A stretch of 64,000 bases of DNA, taken from contig NZ_CP109473.1 in NCBI RefSeq assembly GCF_036227405.1, positions 4,340,001 through 4,404,000 on the forward strand. Direction: 5' to 3'. Shown one piece after another: positions 7,083 through 25,765 of this stretch. This DNA comes from Streptomyces sp. NBC_01460 (GTDB taxonomy: Bacteria; Actinomycetota; Actinomycetes; Streptomycetales; Streptomycetaceae). Position 1 is the stretch's first letter. Every line of letters starts with the position of its first letter. Made by a program: the position numbers and the translations under genes. The notes under the pieces were generated by a model. The model was not told where the DNA came from. It saw only the letters and a program-made list of their open reading frames with translations, and did not search any database.

Positions 7083-7155
7083 GCACTCGTAGCTTAACGG
7101 ATAGAGCATCTGACTACGGATCAGAAGGTTGCAGGTTCGAATCCTGCCGAGTGCA
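7083..7155 (+). tRNA. tRNA-Arg (anticodon ACG), AICE integration site
   Basis: Acceptor GCACTCG pairs with CGAGTGC, anticodon loop CTACGGA gives ACG, T arm GCAGGTTCGAATCCTGC, discriminator A followed by CA. From base 7114 onward the sequence is shared with the copy at 25406, so the 3' part of this tRNA is supplied by the integrated element and the gene stays functional. Confidence 0.96.
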
Positions 7156-7203
7156 CAGCAGGCCAGAGGCCCCCAGGAGAAATCCTGGGGGCCTCTCGCG
7201 TTG
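7114..7203 (+). repeat. attL (90-bp direct repeat)
   Basis: The 90 bases match 25406-25495 with one difference (A at 7181 versus G at 25473); the first 67 bases are identical. The repeat covers the tRNA-Arg from the anticodon loop to the 3' end plus the downstream terminator hairpin. Confidence 0.95.
7165..7196. terminator. Terminator after tRNA-Arg (within attL)
   Basis: Inverted repeat with 14-bp arms (AGAGGCCCCCAGGA and complement) and a gaaa loop. It follows the tRNA directly. The copy at the right end has the loop gaga. Confidence 0.85.
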
Positions 7204-7206
7204 CCC

Positions 7207-7230
7207 GTACAGCAGCGAAGTACAGCAACC
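7207..7230 (+). other. Candidate integrase arm-binding site, left
   Basis: This 24-base segment begins GTACAGCAGCGAAGTAC and matches 25300-25323 in 22 of 24 positions and in the same orientation. Both copies are just inside the element, beside the att core, as expected for arm-type sites of tyrosine integrases. Confidence 0.55.
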
Positions 7231-7233
7231 GTG

Positions 7234-8460
7234 TCAGCCGGTACCGCCCATCGCGTCGGACAGCTTGCCGATCGCGGCGCGTACCTCTTCCTCGCTGGCC
7301 TCGGCGTAGACCTCCATCGTCATGGCGATCTGTGAGTGCCGAAGGATTCGCTGAGCGATCTTCGGGTGCACTTTGAGCGCGACCAGGAGCGAACTGCATG
7401 TGTGCCGCGTGTTCCGCAGCGGGATGACCCGGAGGCCGGCGCGGCGGGCCCGAAGTGCGAACATCCGGGTGAGGTTCCCCGGCTCGATCGGAGTGCCGTA
7501 CTTGGTGGTGAACACCAGGCCGTGCGCGTCCTGCCAGAGTTCGCCCGCGGCCGTCCGGTCGCCGACCTGCTGAGCCCGGTGCATCCGTAGGGCTTTCAGG
7601 CAGAGGGACGGCAGGGGCAGGAAGTCGTCAGAGTCTTCGGTCTTGGTCTCGCGGTGGAGGATCTGCCTGCCAGCCCGCTGGATCTGGTGGTCCACGTACA
7701 GTTCGCCGGCCTCGAAGTCGATGGACTTCCACGTAAGCCCCAGAACCTCCCCGCGTCTCAGGCCGAGCGTCAGCACAAGAACCCAGGCTGCGAAGAGGTG
7801 GTCATCGCGAGCGGCAGCGTCCGCGAGGAACTGGCCGGCCTCAGCAACAGACCACGGCTTGATCCGGCGTCGACGAGGCTTCGGCACCTTCACGAGCGAG
7901 GCGACGTTCTTACCGATCTCCTCCTCTGTGACCGCATGCGTCAGGGCAGCCCGCAGAGCGTCGCGGGATGCCTGGATCACCCGGCGGGACGGGTACGACT
8001 CGCAGCAGTCTCCGACCGCGCAGCACTTCCGTCGAGCAGCCGCCCTCTTCTCGTCCTTCCCCTGGGCGCAGCACTGACAGACGGTGCCCAGCTTGGTCAG
8101 CCACTCGCGCACATCCCGGACGGTGAGCTTGTCGAGCCGCTTGGAGCCGAGGTGAGGGGTGATGTAGAGCCTGACGTACCCCTCGTACGAGACGTAGGAC
8201 AGCGGGGCGAGGTTGGGCTTCACGATCGAGTCGAGCCAGTACGCCAGGAAGGCGTCGAGGGTGCGGTGCCGGGTGGCCACTGGCCCCTTCTTCGCTTCCG
8301 CGTGGAGGGCCAGCCACTTGTCGTGGACCTCTTCGCGGGTCTTGCCGTACGCGTACTTCCTTGCGCGCTTCCCGTCCGGCTTGGTCACCCAGACGTAGGC
8401 CGCGAAGCCGTTCTTGTACGGGTAGATGGAGCCCTCTCCGTTGCCGCGCTTGCCGGTCAT
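7234..8460 (-). CDS. int: Tyrosine integrase of the AICE
   Basis: Site-specific recombinase, 408 residues, for integration into and (with Xis) excision from tRNA-Arg. The N-terminal arm-binding region (about 1-65) is followed by a SAM-like core-binding domain and the catalytic domain (about 200-400): Arg235 in LGLRRGEVLG, box II at 349-353, His375 in RHSQ and the nucleophile Tyr385 in MTMEVY. Box II reads RNTRHT, so the usual first His is Arg, a variant I have seen in actinomycete integrases. A Cys-rich insertion (C128, C130, C131, C146, C147, C152, C153) in the core-binding domain may bind zinc. The start ATG at 8460 overlaps the excisionase stop by 4 bp, showing translational coupling; an upstream-extended frame to 8730 is an artefact. 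Confidence 0.96.
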   Translation of the reverse strand: MTGKRGNGEGSIYPYKNGFAAYVWVTKPDGKRARKYAYGKTREEVHDKWLALHAEAKKGPVATRHRTLDAFLAYWLDSIVKPNLAPLSYVSYEGYVRLYITPHLGSKRLDKLTVRDVREWLTKLGTVCQCCAQGKDEKRAAARRKCCAVGDCCESYPSRRVIQASRDALRAALTHAVTEEEIGKNVASLVKVPKPRRRRIKPWSVAEAGQFLADAAARDDHLFAAWVLVLTLGLRRGEVLGLTWKSIDFEAGELYVDHQIQRAGRQILHRETKTEDSDDFLPLPSLCLKALRMHRAQQVGDRTAAGELWQDAHGLVFTTKYGTPIEPGNLTRMFALRARRAGLRVIPLRNTRHTCSSLLVALKVHPKIAQRILRHSQIAMTMEVYAEASEEEVRAAIGKLSDAMGGTG

Positions 8461-8663
8461 GCTGCCCACCCTTCGGCGTCGGCGGAGACGCGCTGGATGT
8501 ACTCGTCCACCCAGGCCGGGAGGATGCGGCGGTTGCGACCGACTTTCACGGAACGGATCTCCCCGGTGAGCACGAGCATTTTCGTCTTGGAGAGCCCGAA
8601 GCCGAGCATCTCGGCGACCTCGGTGGTGGAGTGCCACTTGCGCTCGATCACGGTGGTGGTCAT
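8457..8663 (-). CDS. xis: Excisionase / MerR-like helix-turn-helix protein
   Basis: A 68-residue DNA-binding protein with a winged-helix excisionase fold: STTEVAEMLGFGLSKTKMLV is the helix-turn-helix and SVKVGRNRRILPAWVDEYI the wing and C-terminal helix. It should bend the att arms and steer the integrase to excision. It lies between the initiator and integrase genes, overlapping each by 4 bp (ATGA), the arrangement seen in pSAM2 (repSA-xis-int). Confidence 0.93.
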   Translation of the reverse strand: MTTTVIERKWHSTTEVAEMLGFGLSKTKMLVLTGEIRSVKVGRNRRILPAWVDEYIQRVSADAEGWAA

Positions 8664-10072
8664 GCAGCTGTCCCTTCCAGAGCGTCATACCGGGCTTCGC
8701 GGGCGGTCTCGCGGTTGGTTTGGAGATCACGGGCGATGGTGGCGGCGAGAGCTCCTTCGCCGGGGGTGTGCCCGTGGCCTACGTACTGCCAGTCGGTCAG
8801 GACGAGGACGGTGTCCGGTTCGCGGTCGGCGAGGCCGAGAGCAGGCGCTTCCTGGGCGGCGCGGTAGTCGGCGCGTTCCTGACGGAGGGCGCCGAGGGTG
8901 GTGGAGTAGGTGCGGGACTTGGACGAGAAGTGGCCGCGGAAGCCGAGCATGTGGGCCCAGGCCCAGAGACGTCGGTCCGGATAGAGGCTGTCGAGCTCAC
9001 GGCATGCGGTGATGAGCCGACGGGTGTGATCGGGAACGCGGTGGCGGTCGAGTTCGGCGAGCTCACCGATACGGCGGTCCAGGGTGCCGGTGTTCTCGGC
9101 GGCTTTGGTGGCGTACTTGGCCACGTACGAGGCGACGGCCTGTTCGGTGACATCTGAACCGTCGCCGAAGGCCTTGACCGGGCGGACGTCGAGCTGTCGT
9201 CCCCATTGGAAGGTCCGGGCCGACTGTTCACCGGCAGCCGGGACGGAGACCGACGTGTACGAGTGCGCGGCTGCGGCTCGTATCGCGTCGGTGAGGAGAT
9301 CGACCGTGGCCCAAGAGGGCGGCGGAGTGCAAGGTCCCTCCGGGCCGTCGAGACGTACGACGGCGTGGAAGTGGAGGGCTCCGCGCTTCTGGAATTCGGC
9401 GACCTTGCCGAAGGAGACGCGGAGATGGTCACCCAGCTCACGGCGTGGGATGCCCGCGTGGATGGCGAGTTCGCGGCGGAGTCGGGTGGTGAAGCGCTGC
9501 CAGAGCTCCCCGGCGTGGTTGTTGAAGAGCACGGCGCCCGCGTAGTCGTAGGTCTCCGGGTCAAGGGCGGAGCCCAGGTCCGCGGAGTCCGAGGCGTGTG
9601 CCGTGCCGCACCGGCAGGTGCCCCGGTCGGGGCGGTTGTGGACAGGGCCGAACGAGGGTGCGGTGAGGGTGGCGAATACGCGCGGGTGGTCGCGGACGGC
9701 GGCGGTGATGTCGCGGCGGTCGTCTCCGGCGAGGCCGGCGCGGATCAGGTGGTAGGTGTCGCCCGCGTAGGTCCAGGCGCAGGAGGGGCAGCGGGAGGCG
9801 CGGCGGTTGCCGCAGGCGATGCGGAGACGCCCGCCCGGCTCGTACGCGGTCGAGTAGCGGTGCAGGGTCTCGCCGGTGGTCTTGTCCTTGTGGGTTACCC
9901 AGCCGCTCAGGTGGACGGGGTCGGCACAGCCGCCGGTGCGGCGGATCTGGTCCTCCCAGCGGGTGTAGTCGGAGGCCGAGGCCACCCGGAGGACGTCCCC
10001 GAGGACGGTCGGGTCGAGCTGTGGGGCGGGCGTGGACCGCTTCTGTTTCGAGGGTGAGGGCCGGTGGGCCAT
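8660..10072 (-). CDS. RepSA-type rolling-circle replication initiator
   Basis: Replication initiator of 470 residues for the excised circular form. Seen: an N-terminal Cys cluster (CGNRRASRCPSC, then CRCG at about 153), motif FATLTAPSFGP at 133-143, the metal-binding HUH motif HFH at 234-236 (GALHFHAVV), and the tyrosine motif VASYVAKYATKA at about 313-323, where Tyr317 or Tyr320 is the likely nicking nucleophile. This order matches RepSA of pSAM2 and related actinomycete initiators. Its stop overlaps the excisionase start. The origin (dso) is usually within or near this gene; I could not place it. Confidence 0.93.
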   Translation of the reverse strand: MAHRPSPSKQKRSTPAPQLDPTVLGDVLRVASASDYTRWEDQIRRTGGCADPVHLSGWVTHKDKTTGETLHRYSTAYEPGGRLRIACGNRRASRCPSCAWTYAGDTYHLIRAGLAGDDRRDITAAVRDHPRVFATLTAPSFGPVHNRPDRGTCRCGTAHASDSADLGSALDPETYDYAGAVLFNNHAGELWQRFTTRLRRELAIHAGIPRRELGDHLRVSFGKVAEFQKRGALHFHAVVRLDGPEGPCTPPPSWATVDLLTDAIRAAAAHSYTSVSVPAAGEQSARTFQWGRQLDVRPVKAFGDGSDVTEQAVASYVAKYATKAAENTGTLDRRIGELAELDRHRVPDHTRRLITACRELDSLYPDRRLWAWAHMLGFRGHFSSKSRTYSTTLGALRQERADYRAAQEAPALGLADREPDTVLVLTDWQYVGHGHTPGEGALAATIARDLQTNRETAREARYDALEGTAA

Positions 10073-11998: not shown

Positions 11999-13351
11999 TC
12001 AGGCGGTGGCCGGAGAAGCCTTCGCCGATGGCACAAGCTCGGTGGCGGTGCCGGTGGTGGGCCGGAAAGGGGCCAGCTCGGGCAGGTCCGGGGTCCTGTC
12101 GGCGTACCGGTTGCAGAGGTTCACGGCCTGGCGGAGCGAGGTGTGCGGAGCGCGGATGCGGTGCCAGCCGCCGGACGAGTCTCCCGCGATAGCAAGGCCT
12201 CGCAGTTCGGCGGGAATCTGGATGGCGGCGAGGACCGCGTCCGGGGCGATGTCGCCGAAGGCCATGTTGGCGGAGGTCTCGTCGTTGAGACGGTGGGCGG
12301 TGCGGCCGGTGAGTTGGGCGCGGAGCATGGTGATGCCCTTGCCGAGTTCGGAGCCGAAGCGCTGTCCGCAGATTTCGAGGTAGATACCGGCGGCGCGGCC
12401 GAGCTGTGCGAGACGGACCAGGGCGGTGATGATGCGGTCTCGCCGCCTCTCCTCCTCCTTCGTTGCGTACAGGGCGAGTTCGGCCACCTCGTCGACCAGG
12501 ACGACGACCGGGGTCGGGCGGAGCTCCTCAGGCAGGTCCCAGATGTCGGCGGCGATCTCCGCGTCCGGCACATCGACGGTGATGCGCTGCTGGGTACGGA
12601 TGAGGCGGTAGACGTCCGCCATCCGCGCCACGAGTGCATCGAGGAGTTCGGCAGCGGTGTCCGGGCTGTCGGCCAGCGCTGAGAACCTGCTTGCCAGCGG
12701 GAAGAGTTCGACCCCTTGTTTGCAGTCGATGCCGACGAGGGCAACGTCCAGAGGAGCAAGGCCGGCGACCAGGTTGCGTTGGTAGACCGACTTGCCGGAC
12801 TCCGTGGCACCGAGGGTGAGGGCGTGAGGGTTCGCGCGGTAGTCGCGGTAGTGCACCGACCCGTCCTCCCGAAGGGCGACCGGTACCCGCATCGGCCGGG
12901 TCTCCGTCTCAGCAGGCATCTGCACCCGCTTGAGCACGTCGTATCCGGTCATCCGCACCTCGACGACACCGGACCGCACCTCACGCGAGGTCACGCCGAA
13001 CATCGAGAACGAGTGCCGAAGCCGGTCCGAGGCCGCAGCGATGTCGAAGACGTCCTGCCCGGGACGGAGCTTGAGTCGGAGGACCAGGCCGGTGCGAGTC
13101 GGCCACAGTCGTCGGATACGCGGTGGGCGGGGTTCAGGTATCGGCTGGTTGGTGGCCCGAGCCAGAGATAACCGCCAACGCGCCGGCGGAACGGTCAACC
13201 CGCACGCGTCCATGACCGAGCGGTACCGGACCAAGACCCGCAGCGCGGCCAGAGTGACCCCGAAGCCCAGCCAGTACCAGGCGGGCCGCCGCCACCGCAG
13301 GAGACCCGCAGCGGCGACGACCAGCACCAGAGCGACCGTGAAGGCGGTCAT
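11999..13351 (-). CDS. TraB-type FtsK/SpoIIIE DNA translocase (conjugation)
   Basis: The conjugative DNA pump, 450 residues. Two N-terminal membrane segments (about 3-18 and 25-42) anchor it; the motor domain has Walker A GATESGKS at 181-188 and Walker B VVVLVDE at 282-288, with the RecA-like arginine region further on. In Streptomyces a single protein of this class translocates double-stranded DNA from the clt site, without a type IV secretion system. I cannot see a clear C-terminal winged-helix gamma domain beyond the short helical tail. The ATG at 13351 lies 2 bp after the upstream stop, so translation is coupled. Confidence 0.93.
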   Translation of the reverse strand: MTAFTVALVLVVAAAGLLRWRRPAWYWLGFGVTLAALRVLVRYRSVMDACGLTVPPARWRLSLARATNQPIPEPRPPRIRRLWPTRTGLVLRLKLRPGQDVFDIAAASDRLRHSFSMFGVTSREVRSGVVEVRMTGYDVLKRVQMPAETETRPMRVPVALREDGSVHYRDYRANPHALTLGATESGKSVYQRNLVAGLAPLDVALVGIDCKQGVELFPLASRFSALADSPDTAAELLDALVARMADVYRLIRTQQRITVDVPDAEIAADIWDLPEELRPTPVVVLVDEVAELALYATKEEERRRDRIITALVRLAQLGRAAGIYLEICGQRFGSELGKGITMLRAQLTGRTAHRLNDETSANMAFGDIAPDAVLAAIQIPAELRGLAIAGDSSGGWHRIRAPHTSLRQAVNLCNRYADRTPDLPELAPFRPTTGTATELVPSAKASPATA

Positions 13352-13353
13352 GA

Positions 13354-13713
13354 TCAGGCCGCCTTCGACCCTGTGGTGGCGACGTCGGCGAGCGAGGTGA
13401 CCGCGACCGCGCGGAACGCGATGCCGTGCCGCCGCTGGCCGTTGAAGTCGTTCTCCCACGGACGGGCGACCAGGCCGGTGAGCGCGACCGGCGTACCCAT
13501 GGCCAGCTCACCGGTGATCCCGGGCTCCGGAACGGTGACGGACAGGATCTCCACCTCCTCGTTCGCCGCGAACATCACGTCCACGGTCATGAGCTGAGCA
13601 CCGGTCTCCATGTCGGTGGCGATCTCACCGGTGCGGCGGTCACGGACCTTGACCTGCGGAATCTTGGCGACCATCACGACAGCGCTGGAGGTGTCGACGG
13701 GAATCTGACGCAC
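13354..13713 (-). CDS. SCO3933-family putative regulatory protein
   Basis: 119 residues, first gene of the excision-replication-transfer operon. The pattern IPVDTSSAVVMV, VRDRRTGEIATD, LTGLVARPWEN and RHGIAFRA is the widely spread AICE family I know as SCO3933-like. It is predicted to be a beta-rich, perhaps OB-like, single-domain protein; it may act as a regulator or single-strand-binding accessory protein, but no function has been shown to my knowledge. Two operator copies lie immediately upstream. Confidence 0.85.
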   Translation of the reverse strand: MRQIPVDTSSAVVMVAKIPQVKVRDRRTGEIATDMETGAQLMTVDVMFAANEEVEILSVTVPEPGITGELAMGTPVALTGLVARPWENDFNGQRRHGIAFRAVAVTSLADVATTGSKAA

Positions 13714-21591: not shown

Positions 21592-22176
21592 GTGGGTTCA
21601 GCCAGTCGGTGGGCACGTGAGACCTTCGGAGACACAGCCAGCGAACTGTCCGACATCATCCCGGCCTGCCTCGTCCGGGCTCATGAGCGAGCACGCACAG
21701 GGCAGGAGGGCGTCCATACCCAGACGCTCGAAGCCTACGGACATGGCCTCTACGCGGTGCAATACGAGGAACTGGCCGCCGGCATCTCCGGACTCGGAGA
21801 ACCAGTACGCCTGCAAGGACGCATGATGATGCTCGTCCGCGGGCAACTGATCTACCCCCTCCGCTATGCGAAGAGGGATCTGCCTGTCACGGCTGCACGT
21901 CTCCGTCGAGCCACAGGCTTCCGAGCAGACCTGATCCGACGCCACGGCCCACAGCCCATGCAGCAAGCCTTCGACTTGGACTTTGGGGAACTTGAAGACT
22001 CTGAGGTGCATCCAGACATGGAGCTGCTTCCCGAAGACGTGCAACTCGTCCTCGTCGCCTACGCCTGCTCCATGGAGAGGGGCGTCATGCGCATCGAGTG
22101 GGGCTCTGCGGAGCTGCGCCGCGAGGACAGGTATCTGATCTGGCACCGTCACGAGCCGCTACCCATCTCAGACTGA
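21592..22176 (+). CDS. Hypothetical soluble protein
   Basis: 194 residues from GTG at 21592, with AAGGAAGGAC upstream. Predicted mixed alpha/beta, no signal peptide or membrane segment. Distinctive parts are HTQTLEAYGHGLYAVQYEEL, GRMMMLVRGQLIYPLRYAK and ELLPEDVQLVLVAYACSMER, followed by a Trp/Arg-rich end (IEWGSAELRREDRYLIWHRH). I recognise no domain. It is cargo between the GntR block and the AAA+ module, about 270 bp upstream of the latter, and could be related to it or independent. Confidence 0.7.
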   Translation: MGSASRWARETFGDTASELSDIIPACLVRAHERARTGQEGVHTQTLEAYGHGLYAVQYEELAAGISGLGEPVRLQGRMMMLVRGQLIYPLRYAKRDLPVTAARLRRATGFRADLIRRHGPQPMQQAFDLDFGELEDSEVHPDMELLPEDVQLVLVAYACSMERGVMRIEWGSAELRREDRYLIWHRHEPLPISD

Positions 22177-22444: not shown

Positions 22445-23650
22445 TTGCGCCAAGAAGCTGTAAGTGTAAGCAAGCCTCGAACAGTGGCCCGTGTCAGCCA
22501 CATCAGCGAGGACAGACAAACGACGTTCCTGGAACTCCGGGATGGGCGAACCGCTACGGCAGATCATATGGAGCCGTTCGCCGAGGTTGGGGACATCATT
22601 TTCATGGATCCGGACGATGGATCGGTTGAGCTAGCTCCCCATGACCTATGGAGGGAAGATGTCTGGGTCGGCGTAACGAAACTTGTAGTTGGCGATCGAG
22701 TTGTAGTCGAAATCGGAGGTCGGCTACGCCTATTCTCCAATACGTTTGCTGAACCTTTGCGCGCAGGCCTAACCGTGGAGGGTACGGATTCAAACGGAAT
22801 CCTAGGAATTCTCTCCGAAAAAGCGATTAAATTCCTGGACGACTCGACAGAGGATGCCCTTCCAGAGCGATTCATCGTGCCACCGAACGAGAATCTCTCC
22901 TTCAAGGATTTTGGCGGTTACTCTGATATCGTCACAAGAGCGCGTGAACTAATTGAACTACCGTTGAAATACCATGACGCCTTGAATGAAATCGGCGCCA
23001 GGCCGATCAAGGGAGTTCTTTTTTCTGGCCCGTCGGGAACGGGTAAGACACTGCTCGCCCGAATCATCGCTAACCATGCCGACGCAGTTTTCTATGCCAT
23101 CAACGGCCCGGAAGTTCTCAGCAAGTGGTATGGCCAAAGCGAAGAGATCATTCGGCGAATTTTCGAGGACGCCAAGAAGCGTGAACGCGCTATTATTTTC
23201 TTCGATGAGATTGACAGCTTGGCATCCCAGCGTAGCGATGAGTCGCATGAGGCGTCCCGGCGAGTAGTAGGGCAACTTCTGGCGCTTATGGATGGCTTTT
23301 CGCCTGACACTAATGTGATGGTCCTAGGCACCACCAACCGGCCGCAGGATGTCGATTCTGCGCTTCGTAGACCTGGGCGTTTCGACTGGCACGTAGATTT
23401 CCCAATTCCGACCGAAAGGGACAGGGAAGAAATCCTCACAACTTCAAGCAGGAAACTGCGACTCAAAGAAGACATGCCACATCTCTGGGTGGCCGAGCGG
23501 ACAGAATCATGGACGCCGGCTGAACTTGCAGCAATCTGGACTGAAGCCGCGCTGCTTGCAGTCGCGGACCGACGTAGGGCGCTTCTACCTGAGGACTACA
23601 TCGGTGGGTATGAGCGAGTCGCCAAGCAGCGCATGGGGCCGAGAGGATAA
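22445..23650 (+). CDS. AAA+ ATPase with ARC/Cdc48-like layout
   Basis: 401-residue AAA+ ATPase. The N-terminal 140 residues look like two small OB-type beta domains (VARVSHISEDRQTTFLELRD; VTKLVVGDRVVVEIGGRLRL), as in ARC/Mpa or PAN. The motor has Walker A GPSGTGKT at 195-202, a pore-loop-like KWYG at 227-230, Walker B AIIFFDEID at 249-257, sensor-1 GTTNRPQ around 298 and Arg-finger candidates in LRRPGRFD (308-312). It should form a hexameric ring that remodels or unfolds a substrate; the C-terminus (KQRMGPRG) lacks the HbYX proteasome-docking motif. TTG start at 22445 is set by GGAGG six bases upstream. G+C is much lower than the rest. Stop lies 5 bp before the partner gene. Confidence 0.9.
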   Translation: MRQEAVSVSKPRTVARVSHISEDRQTTFLELRDGRTATADHMEPFAEVGDIIFMDPDDGSVELAPHDLWREDVWVGVTKLVVGDRVVVEIGGRLRLFSNTFAEPLRAGLTVEGTDSNGILGILSEKAIKFLDDSTEDALPERFIVPPNENLSFKDFGGYSDIVTRARELIELPLKYHDALNEIGARPIKGVLFSGPSGTGKTLLARIIANHADAVFYAINGPEVLSKWYGQSEEIIRRIFEDAKKRERAIIFFDEIDSLASQRSDESHEASRRVVGQLLALMDGFSPDTNVMVLGTTNRPQDVDSALRRPGRFDWHVDFPIPTERDREEILTTSSRKLRLKEDMPHLWVAERTESWTPAELAAIWTEAALLAVADRRRALLPEDYIGGYERVAKQRMGPRG

Positions 23651-23655
23651 TTAAG

Positions 23656-25023
23656 GTGATTCAGAGACTGAAAATGTGGATTAGAGTCAAAATTCTCCGC
23701 CGTGGAGTTCGCGAGATGAAGCGTGTTCGCGAGTTCATCTATCTCGATGAGGTGAGCGTTACCAGCCTGCTGGCGTCGATTCTGGGAGCTATTCCCAGCG
23801 AGATCACGGAGAAACTCACCAACTCCACACGAACAGAGCTTGGCGGTGGGGGAGAGTTTAAGGCAGGGGCGGGTAAGGCGAATGCCGCGATGAAGCGTGA
23901 GGTCACCCGCGCCAGCGATTATCAAGTGCTACGAAAGGCATCTATCCAAGCTACATTCAAGGATTTGTACGCAACTGTTGAGTCATCTCTAGTGCTGCGT
24001 TCCGGTCCCTTCCCGGAGCTAAAACCGGCCGCTATGCGAAAGGTTCGCTACGCCTCATCCATGCATTCGGAATTTTCGCCATGGATCGTTGACGGTGCGA
24101 GCCTAAAGCGGGGTCGTCTTATTGAGCTTGAAGTGGAACTCCGTGCCGATGCAATCTTCCGGACGAGCACCATCATCACGAGCATGACCAATATCATCGG
24201 CCAGTCGCCCGCGCTTGCTGCCGAAGTCGAAACGCAAGAGATGCGAACAGCGATTGAGGTGAACGGTTTCATTCAAGAATTGATGGCTGGCCTAATTCCG
24301 ATTAAATGTCGAGCGATTAACTATGAAGTTTCCACCGTTGAGGGACGCGACTTCCTCATCGCTGGCGACATCTTCCCTGAACTCCCTGAGGCCTATCGGC
24401 TGAACCGGAGGCCTCTGTACCTGGTCGGTGTTGTTGAGGAAGCGCTTTTCTGGAAAGATATTAGGCGCGTTCTCTTTTCGGGATCGTCGGTAAAGGTGCT
24501 TTGCCGGGTGGGGCGCGATCAAGTGCAAGACTCCTGGAGTCCGGTTAAGTTGGTCGATGTGCTCAAAGAAGTAGTCCCAGACATGGAAAGCGCAATGGAT
24601 GAATTTGGCCCCTCTGCCCTTAGGGCGATGACGGGAGGCGTGGATGACAGTGGCGACGTGACGCAGCTACGTGAATCTGCGTTGGCTCGTTACGGTGATC
24701 TTCTTGTCGAGTCGCAGGGCGCAACTATGTCGGAAGAGCTGCGGGCAAGAATCGCACAAGTTGTGTCCAGTAGGTCTTCGGAAATGGGGTCAGTCGTTGC
24801 CAACCGTGCTGTTTTCCGCGCAGTTGCAGAGTGCGTATCTGATGAGCTTTCATGTCAGTTCACCTCCGACGACGAAGCTCGGATGCGTGGCGAAGCGCTG
24901 ACGCAGCATGGACTCATGGTGGACGGCAGCCTCTCAGTCCGTCCTGGAAACTCAAGTGGTCACCTTGATGACACTGTTGATGGAAAATGCATTGATGCTG
25001 AGATCGTGGCGATCTACTGGTGA
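23656..25023 (+). CDS. DUF6414-like protein, partner of the AAA+ ATPase
   Basis: 455 residues from GTG at 23656, 5 bp after the ATPase stop; ATG 23716 (with GGAG eight bases upstream) would start at MKRVREFIYLDEVSVTSLLA, which is where the recognisable similarity begins. The REFIYLDEVSVTSLLAS opening followed by IPSEITEKL resembles the DUF6414 family as I remember it; the function of that family is unknown. The middle (about 60-300) looks alpha/beta (LIELEVELRADAIFRTSTII), the end contains a possible nucleotide or dimer region. The first 20 residues from GTG are basic and amphipathic. Low G+C like its partner. Tight coupling argues the two act together; an anti-phage or anti-plasmid role is inference from location. 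Confidence 0.85.
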   Translation: MIQRLKMWIRVKILRRGVREMKRVREFIYLDEVSVTSLLASILGAIPSEITEKLTNSTRTELGGGGEFKAGAGKANAAMKREVTRASDYQVLRKASIQATFKDLYATVESSLVLRSGPFPELKPAAMRKVRYASSMHSEFSPWIVDGASLKRGRLIELEVELRADAIFRTSTIITSMTNIIGQSPALAAEVETQEMRTAIEVNGFIQELMAGLIPIKCRAINYEVSTVEGRDFLIAGDIFPELPEAYRLNRRPLYLVGVVEEALFWKDIRRVLFSGSSVKVLCRVGRDQVQDSWSPVKLVDVLKEVVPDMESAMDEFGPSALRAMTGGVDDSGDVTQLRESALARYGDLLVESQGATMSEELRARIAQVVSSRSSEMGSVVANRAVFRAVAECVSDELSCQFTSDDEARMRGEALTQHGLMVDGSLSVRPGNSSGHLDDTVDGKCIDAEIVAIYW

Positions 25024-25405
25024 TACGGCTCCTGAAGGTCGGCTACTTCATGGGGCTCAGCCACCAGCCGACCACCCCAGCCACAGAGAGTGCCTCCCCC
25101 TTTCGTGCCTGCCGCCGCCGGGCGCGGCCAGCCGGGGCGGAGACAGGAGGCAGGCCGCGCCGCTGGGGCGGCGCGTGCCCGCTCGGTGCGCGGGCCTTGA
25201 CGTGGTGGGAAATTCTTGCGCCGTCTGATCCGCTGGCCACGATCGAGCGATACCCAGGGTGATGTGCATGCGCATGGGCGACCTGTAGCTGGGGCTGCTG
25301 TACAGCAGCGGAGTACCGCAACCACAGCAACCGGCCCCGACCGCCACCGTCTCTCCCGACCCTCGTAACGGCCGGTATGGCCGTCACTGACCGATCCGGC
25401 TAGAG
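25024..25405. other. Right-end non-coding region of the AICE
   Basis: About 380 bp between the last cargo gene and attR. It contains the right integrase arm-site candidate (25300-25323). ORFs here overlap each other on both strands without ribosome sites and are not supported. Confidence 0.55.
25300..25323 (+). other. Candidate integrase arm-binding site, right
   Basis: Begins GTACAGCAGCGGAGTACC; 22 of 24 bases equal the left copy at 7207-7230. It ends 83 bp before the att core. Confidence 0.55.
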
Positions 25406-25495
25406 CTACGGATCAGAAGGTTGCAGGTTCGAATCCTGCCGAGTGCACAGCAGGCCAGAGGCCCCCAGGAGAGATCCTGGGGGCCTCTCGCGTTG
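25406..25495 (+). repeat. attR with tRNA-Arg 3' remnant
   Basis: Second copy of the 90-bp repeat. It contains the tRNA-Arg from the anticodon loop to the 3' end and the downstream hairpin, but no 5' half (upstream bases are unrelated), so it is not a tRNA gene. Marks the right end of the element. Confidence 0.95.
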
Positions 25496-25765
25496 TCCGT
25501 ACGGCGGCGAGGTGTGCACGGAGCTCGCTGCTGCGGCCGGTCCGTCACGACCGCCCTCGCGTGACGCATCAGCGGCTGGCACCGACACGGCCCGTCCTTG
25601 GTGAATCCCGCCGTACGCAGTCGGCCGGCGCGGCGCGGTACGGGGTATTCCGTCGTGCCGGGTGTCCGTCCACGACCTGACACGGGTGAGGCCACAGGTC
25701 GAGTCCTGCGCTCGACGTGCACGCGCATCTGGTGAGCAGACACAGGGGCATGCCAGGATCACCCT

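Follow-up and report, generated by a model that had tools for sequence, protein, structure and literature searches.

Two adjacent genes of low G+C content, one for an AAA+ ATPase and one for a protein of the DUF6414 family, lie near the right end of a mobile element in Streptomyces sp. NBC_01460, and they raise the question of what such a pair does there and whether it serves immunity. The locus was analysed within a stretch of 64,000 nucleotides (contig NZ_CP109473.1, positions 4,340,001 to 4,404,000; hereafter the window, whose numbering is used unless the handle of a fetched locus, such as L118, precedes the coordinates) of an 8.8-Mb genome on two contigs. The ATPase gene (22445-23650, + strand) encodes 401 amino acids from a TTG start preceded by GGAGGA, and the DUF6414 gene (23656-25023, + strand) encodes 455 amino acids from a GTG start preceded by GAGAGGA, both purine-rich stretches being judged by eye to be ribosome-binding sequences. 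The genes are separated by 5 bp and form a module of 2.6 kb with a G+C content of 54.1% in each gene, compared to 67.3% in the rest of the element and 70.2% in the window. This agrees with an earlier note, made from the letters alone, which had described two closely spaced genes of low G+C content beside the right attachment site of a mobile element and had read them as an anti-phage or anti-plasmid module.

The follow-up supports that reading, as far as comparison of sequences can. The ATPase has an intact motor with an aromatic pore loop and neither a protease domain nor a docking tail, DUF6414 is co-inherited with it, and the context of the two genes, as read from sequence, is mobile and biased towards defence. 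We therefore consider it somewhat more probable than otherwise that the pair is a horizontally moving module that acts in immunity against phages or other invading DNA; in the broader sense of immunity or exclusion of other elements, such a role appears quite likely.

Recurrence of the pair and the defence genes around it

A scan of GTDB genomes showed that the AAA+ gene lies directly upstream of the DUF6414 gene, on the same strand, in 62 of 64 DUF6414 loci, and hence that the pairing is beyond chance. The two exceptions were a locus at a contig edge (L065) and one with a broken DUF6414 frame and no ATPase match (L070). The scan relied on two peptide patterns; since the C-terminal Tyr-Trp (YW) of DUF6414 is part of one of them, the search favours the long type of the protein. 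According to the record titles, the 64 loci span Actinobacteria, Chloroflexi, Acidobacteria, Alphaproteobacteria, Ignavibacterium, Polyangiaceae and others. The commonest offset between the DUF6414 start and the ATPase stop, with the furthest upstream start counted, was −4 (29 of 62). DUF6414 was also found in 17 of 72,556 plasmid records; among the seven of these hits that were opened, pairs were present in Streptomyces, Corynebacterium, Tsukamurella and Novosphingobium. Plasmids of four haloarchaea carry the pair as well, namely those of Halorientalis, where the DUF6414 frame is broken in two, Halobacterium, Haloarcula and, recovered through the ATPase search, Salinigranum. No DUF6414 was found in 50,697 phage records or in IMG/VR contigs. 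The pair is thus not confined to this locus; such confinement is what, according to the earlier note, would have spoken against its reading.

Nor is it a core chromosomal operon. Profile searches, in which the best four to seven candidates per genome were scored, detected PF19952 (DUF6414) in eight of 246 genomes of the genus, the long ATPase-linked form in only two of them, and the full-length AAA+ in the same two. In a sample of 396 genomes of the phylum, the three with a full-length ATPase were the three with a full-length DUF6414; one further genome had a broken DUF6414 and two had fragments. The best DUF6414 homologues of the window protein are from Streptomyces (94-95%). Pairwise distances of the two proteins were compared over 61 pairs (the 64 loci minus eight that were partial, broken or at a contig edge, plus four plasmid pairs and the window) and correlated with r = 0.882, compared to a maximum of 0.189 in 2000 shuffles.

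Broken DUF6414 frames were seen in L038, L070, L071, L076/L079 and L159, and in L071 the ATPase is broken as well; these frames, which come from contigs of metagenome-assembled genomes, from a haloarchaeal plasmid record and from one genome of the phylum sample, point to loss or to errors in sequencing. On the Halobacterium plasmid (L160:3631-6056, + strand), the pair adjoins an integrase gene and its DUF6414 lacks the family end.

The earlier note had suggested checking whether the pair recurs near known defence genes. The whole genomes of 50 of the 64 loci were searched for five families, and a match was counted as near when its frame was found in the locus DNA within 10 kb of the pair. HSDR_N was near the pair in five of 43 matches, compared to 0.24 expected (Poisson 5e-6), and the OLD-like TOPRIM family in three of 20, compared to 0.09 expected (1e-4). 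N6_N4 methylases showed a weak excess, with four of 123 matches at three of the 50 loci compared to 0.62 expected (0.03); their 17 coordinate-compatible matches were picked by eye and one may be missed. The UvrD marker was dropped as too rich in housekeeping genes. TIR was rejected as a linked marker: 17 of its 87 matches were coordinate-compatible, most of them with internal stops or another frame length, and a TIR gene near the pair was frame-verified in L038 and is possible at the locus edge in L009. An association beyond expectation was thus seen for HSDR_N and OLD-TOPRIM, weakly for the methylases, and not for TIR.

At some loci the pair prolongs a restriction operon. In L035, L040, L044 and L051 it overlaps the end of a type I operon, coming after HsdR and a small gene, which we take to be metalloprotease-like, with successive overlaps of a few to about 50 bases, and genes reading as HsdM and HsdS (named by eye) are clustered upstream of HsdR. 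In L058 the pair comes after HsdR and a GajA/OLD-like gene. In L049, L059 and L063, an N6/N4 methylase gene with a verified frame lies about 2.7-3.0 kb upstream of the pair, with a large gene in between, an arrangement that resembles a type III restriction operon with the pair appended. On the Salinigranum plasmid (L184:1-7047), the pair lies beside genes for DUF1156 and DUF262, names that occur in other prokaryotic defence loci.

A broader comparison was made with the PADLOC models, using genes called in the fetched loci with a crude in-house scorer and not a standard gene finder. Within 4.5 kb, 412 genes were called, of which 227 (two on each side, none longer than 1300 amino acids) served as neighbours; the far control was 125 of 253 genes and the random control was 127 genes from 20 regions of 20 genomes. 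The near genes, in two sets, matched 102 (99 genes) and 195 (128 genes) families, compared to 122 for the far genes and 41 for the random genes, counts which were used qualitatively, being given as families and not as matching proteins. Among the 25 families shown for each list, the neighbours included Gabija, type I and type IV enzymes, Hachiman HamB, AbiE, SspD and TIR (one to four genes each), type I methylase matches occurred among the far genes, and the random control gave mostly helicase models. A third recurrent partner gene was considered and rejected: 22 neighbour clusters occurred in at least three loci and, judged by eye, none besides the restriction genes stays beside the pair.

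The ATPase and its DUF6414 partner

The ATPase matches Pfam AAA (PF00004) with 5.5e-42 and 143.7 bits, and AAA_lid_3 above its own cut-off. It consists of two N-terminal beta regions, one AAA motor of the classic clade and a lid, with no protease domain. The structure model places five strands in each beta region (residues 13-64 and 74-124; predicted local distance difference test score, pLDDT, of the block 79-89) and contains no N-terminal coiled coil. The earlier note had called these regions two OB-like N-domains; the two five-strand regions are there, and a loose alignment was obtained between the second and the N-domain region of Rpt chains, so that the OB-like label is putative, above all for the first.

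The motor is complete, as had been proposed. Its residues were followed in the 61 paired ATPases; a separate ATPase alignment comprised the best 120 of 6155 sequences, less five dropped for length. In the pairs, Walker A (GPSGTGKT, residues 195-202, 23027-23050, + strand, as for all features of the two genes) is invariant at G195, G198, G200, K201 and T202, Walker B (AIIFFDEID, residues 249-257, 23189-23215) at D254 and E255, and the arginine-finger stretch (RRPGRF, residues 308-313, 23366-23383) at R309, G311 and R312; the classic-clade set of Walker A and B, sensor asparagine and two arginine-finger residues is invariant in 61/61. Pore loop 1 (LSKWYGQ, residues 225-231, 23117-23137, also delimited as SKWYGQS) has an aromatic residue at position 228 in 59 of the 61 (W in 55, Y in three, F in one). 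The absence of a proteasome-docking C-terminus, also noted earlier, is general: the HbYX motif was found in 0/61.

The best structural matches of the ATPase were PAN, Rpt, FtsH and p97, and its best NCBIfam scores were for CDC48 and PAN, all far below the family cut-offs. Unlike PAN, ARC (Mpa) and Rpt, it lacks the HbYX tail and, in the model, the N-terminal coiled coil, and it misses the PAN and pup_AAA cut-offs (230.5 vs 500 and 132.7 vs 504.75 bits). Its AAA domain is about 40% identical to p97 D1 in the structure alignment, and a WYG pore loop resembles that of p97 D2. However, it has one AAA module in 401 amino acids and scores 240.2 bits against the TIGR01243 cut-off of 802.65; the actinobacterial Cpa is reported to have an N-domain and two AAA modules (PMC6017811). 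FtsH also differs, since the ATPase scores 188.3 bits against a cut-off of 600 and ends after the AAA lid with no C-terminal metalloprotease domain.

Among defence systems, the best PADLOC match of the ATPase was IetA (1.3e-29), and IetAS is likewise a two-gene unit with a classic-clade AAA+. However, the match covers the AAA domain only (residues 174-379), the score of 88 bits is well short of the cut-off of 510 for NCBIfam NF042959 (IteA), and the partner here is DUF6414, whereas IetS is a subtilase. The HORMA-TRIP13 module of the cyclic oligonucleotide-based anti-phage signalling system (CBASS) also combines an AAA+ remodeller with a dedicated partner, and TRIP13 models match the AAA domain (6.8e-15), but the partner here matches DUF6414 and no HORMA model, and no cyclase was found among the window genes scanned. 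A reported anti-phage complex of an ATPase and a nuclease (PMC11291478) is similar in having two genes for an ATPase and a partner and differs in that DUF6414 has no nuclease match. The pair appears to be kin to AAA+-based two-gene defence modules, with a partner whose fold is unexplained.

The second protein is indeed DUF6414, as the earlier note had proposed: it matches PF19952 with 3.1e-45 and 155.6 bits, compared to the curated cut-off of 25, and 843 homologues were found at E ≤ 0.001 among 7998 scored candidates. In Pfam, NCBIfam, PADLOC and PHROGs only DUF6414 itself and one PHROG of unknown function were matched, with no housekeeping family, no Pfam protease, no nuclease family and, at E ≤ 1, no PADLOC model. 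No solved (PDB) or viral structure gave a convincing or significant fold match to the DUF6414 model (mean pLDDT 77). The name and accession occur in no paper of the literature searched (main texts), and nothing recognisable on the AAA+/DUF6414 pair was found in these searches. Because DUF6414 is absent from that literature and has no matching PADLOC model, the pair looks like an undescribed, widely spread module.

The long, AAA-linked form of DUF6414 comprises an N-terminal extension, a flexible stretch, a beta core, a helical insertion and a last strand. The conserved features were followed in the best 120 of 843 homologues, from which P0011 and P0051 were dropped as partial and to which the window protein was added, giving 119 sequences that were not selected by their tail. 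Tyr-Trp closes all 119, and in 106 the last four residues are Ala-Ile-Tyr-Trp, as in the window (AIYW, 25009-25020); the YW tail is kept in the partners from Haloarcula, Halorientalis and Salinigranum. It is also present in 60 of the 64 scanned loci, partly by construction, as one search pattern includes it. In the model, the AIYW tail is predicted to form the last strand of the beta core. The helical insertion lies between the core and this strand at about residues 298-425 (24547-24930; model helices 298-417, limits by eye). Invariant positions are occupied by F, G, L, P, W, D, R and Y, among which no catalytic set is evident by eye.

The N-terminal extension (residues 1-24, 23656-23727) is cationic, with a net charge of +0.29 per residue compared to −0.03 in the body; an extension is present in 97 of the 119 sequences, 85 of which have a tryptophan within the first 16 residues. 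The adjoining flexible stretch (residues 51-89, 23806-23922) is of low confidence (pLDDT <50). An N-terminal amphipathic helix was considered and rejected: the extension is unusual in charge and tryptophan content, but its helical moment is equalled in 18% of the windows of the body. A pore-forming hairpin is kept as speculation: residues 55-87 show beta alternation in the family average, while in the independent alignment of the loci the highest score of any window in the protein was reached in 13% of shuffles and this stretch ranked 11th among windows.

Stand-alone DUF6414 proteins belong to the same Pfam family and have no adjoining AAA+ of this type in flanks of about 1.5 kb. In the six short proteins compared (about 260-335 amino acids), the helical insertion was not seen, and the C-terminus was AIYR in two and AIALY in one. 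In one such locus, a NERD-domain protein (5.2e-14) is encoded downstream (L004:3059-3910, + strand).

The host element and its cargo slot

The element that carries the pair is 18.3 kb long and is bounded by a 108-nt direct repeat whose left (7114-7221) and right (25406-25513, attR) copies are 95% identical, the left copy overlapping a tRNA-Arg gene (7083-7156). On the − strand it encodes a tyrosine integrase (7234-8730, Phage_integrase 6.4e-14), the pSAM2-type replication initiator RepSA (8660-10072, PF20199 9.1e-145) and an FtsK/SpoIIIE-type transfer protein (11999-13459, PF01580 5.9e-44), and two GntR/UTRA regulators were recognised by Pfam. With its tRNA attachment repeats, integrase, RepSA, transfer protein and GntR regulators, the element is an actinomycete integrative and conjugative element (AICE) of the pSAM2 type. 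The pair stops about 380 bp before attR, in the place that the earlier note had given it.

The slot has conserved borders. On one side is an AICE gene (21592-22176, + strand) for which 63 of 295 genomes of the genus, its own included, encode a homologue; it aligns in 20/20 fetched related elements, with only a 74-nt remnant in L137. On the other side, the sequence 25066-25200 aligned in two of the 20 elements, beyond different cargo, with 83% over 147 nt in L118 and 78% over 92 nt in L119; the 26-nt match in L124 was too short to count. In L118, the closest relative of the element, the border gene (86% identical) and the far border enclose a pair of an AAA_21 ATPase and DUF4276 (L118:1243-3199, + strand), which PADLOC matches as HEC-01A/B. 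This AriA-like module thus fills the same slot between the same borders, but its ATPase is of the AAA_15/21 family and its partner is unrelated. In L119, the slot holds a TIR-type protein (L119:2236-3897, − strand; PADLOC 1.8e-10). In L137 (2703-4336, + strand), in the same place as L005, the border-gene remnant is followed by a 268-amino acid protein and a short stand-alone DUF6414. Pfam gave no match for four of ten cargo proteins taken from related elements. Since cargo varies so much among related elements, the slot is a general cargo site that is sometimes filled with immune genes. DiDNases have been reported in AICEs near defence genes (PMC11706625).

Two further observations concern the slot. 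The 268-amino acid protein of L137 has a likely transmembrane helix (read by eye), and its locus, with the short DUF6414, shows that the slot can also hold DUF6414 in another arrangement. L126 contains two adjacent dynamin-like GTPases of 767 and 778 amino acids (L126:3135-8006, − strand), possibly a further cargo module.

Mechanism, alternatives and meaning

Several results weigh against a defence role for the pair or narrow the case for it. A defence role, as assigned here, would be guilt by association. TIR was not enriched (one frame-verified match of 87 compared to 0.33 expected at the 50 loci, P 0.28), and the linkage is modest, since of the four markers that could be evaluated one or more were found at only 10 of the 50 loci. 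The layouts of L035 and L040 are nearly identical, and the HsdR loci may therefore include some that are not independent of each other. In PADLOC, genes 5.5-10 kb away scored too, pointing to islands and not to one neighbour, and the random control was drawn from 20 genomes of the window's own genus and phylum and not from the genomes of the loci. Cargo of the slot elsewhere includes a major facilitator superfamily transporter and an RHS protein (Pfam, ten cargo proteins of related elements). The correlation of distances also arises from shared descent alone, DUF6414 occurs without this AAA+ in six of the eight genus genomes that have PF19952, and the Halobacterium partner (L160) has no YW tail, its profile match ending before that region.

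How the pair might act can be sketched from its parts. A hexameric AAA+ ring would thread DUF6414 through its pore or remodel it there, and the grip might be on the helical insertion or on the C-terminal Ala-Ile-Tyr-Trp, which is near-invariant. As the tail is modelled as the last strand of the beta core, pulling on it would open the core. Infection would alter the ATPase cycle or the complex, and the remodelled DUF6414 might then act on a membrane or a nucleic acid, for example, through its cationic N-terminus; a non-enzymatic action is proposed because no conserved catalytic set is visible in the protein. That the unfoldase acts on DUF6414, and not the reverse, is put forward tentatively. 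The likelihoods given here to this and the other readings overlap and do not sum to one.

The main rival, which is possible without being probable, reverses the roles: DUF6414 would be the sensor or adaptor and the AAA+ the executor, unfolding a phage, plasmid or host protein delivered to it. Adaptors are common among AAA+ unfoldases of this clade, and the intact motor, the aromatic pore loop and the lack of a catalytic set in DUF6414 fit this arrangement. However, the recurrent neighbours include no recognisable protease gene, apart from the small metalloprotease-like gene of the type I operons, and the stand-alone DUF6414 proteins imply a function that is independent of the ATPase. Under this reading, as under the one in which DUF6414 is remodelled, protection should depend on both genes and on ATP hydrolysis.

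The pair may instead serve elements against one another, in exclusion, incompatibility or maintenance of plasmids and AICEs, and not in defence against phages, which we consider unlikely. It is carried by an AICE and by plasmids and is missing from the phage records and IMG/VR contigs; a tRNA gene, a common integration site, was present in 16 of the 64 fetched loci (counted without a control), and the AAA-based IetAS has a role in incompatibility. On the other hand, embedding in restriction operons is more typical of defence, and inspection of the recurrent neighbours by eye revealed no gene for replication or partition. There is little likelihood that the pair is a neutral hitch-hiker with no immune role: the variable slot does hold non-defence cargo, but the pair and its motor residues are conserved across phyla and two domains of life, and the defence context is non-random. 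A role of the AAA+ in proteostasis, as an accessory unfoldase of the proteasome or of the Cdc48 type with DUF6414 as its adaptor, is most improbable. The best structural matches and NCBIfam scores point that way, but the scores are far below the family cut-offs and the HbYX tail is absent; the gene is also present in Chloroflexi, Alphaproteobacteria and others, and it is patchy, with two of 246 genomes in the genus.

If the immune reading is right, the pair would add a route based on protein remodelling to microbial immunity and would give DUF6414 its first function. A more far-reaching version, which we regard as doubtful, is that bacteria and archaea share an immune principle in which a protease-free Cdc48/PAN-like unfoldase is the conformational trigger: seizing DUF6414 at its AIYW end or at the helical insertion, it would open the beta core and so set free a non-enzymatic effector, which would act on membrane or nucleic acid through its cationic N-terminus and the adjoining flexible stretch rich in Gly, Ser and Ala; the tail-less Halobacterium partner lowers its odds. 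Were it true, DUF6414 would be a new effector fold whose short variants are used without this ATPase. Whichever way the two proteins work, a familiar unfolding motor and a protein of no known fold are held in a tight partnership in two domains of life.

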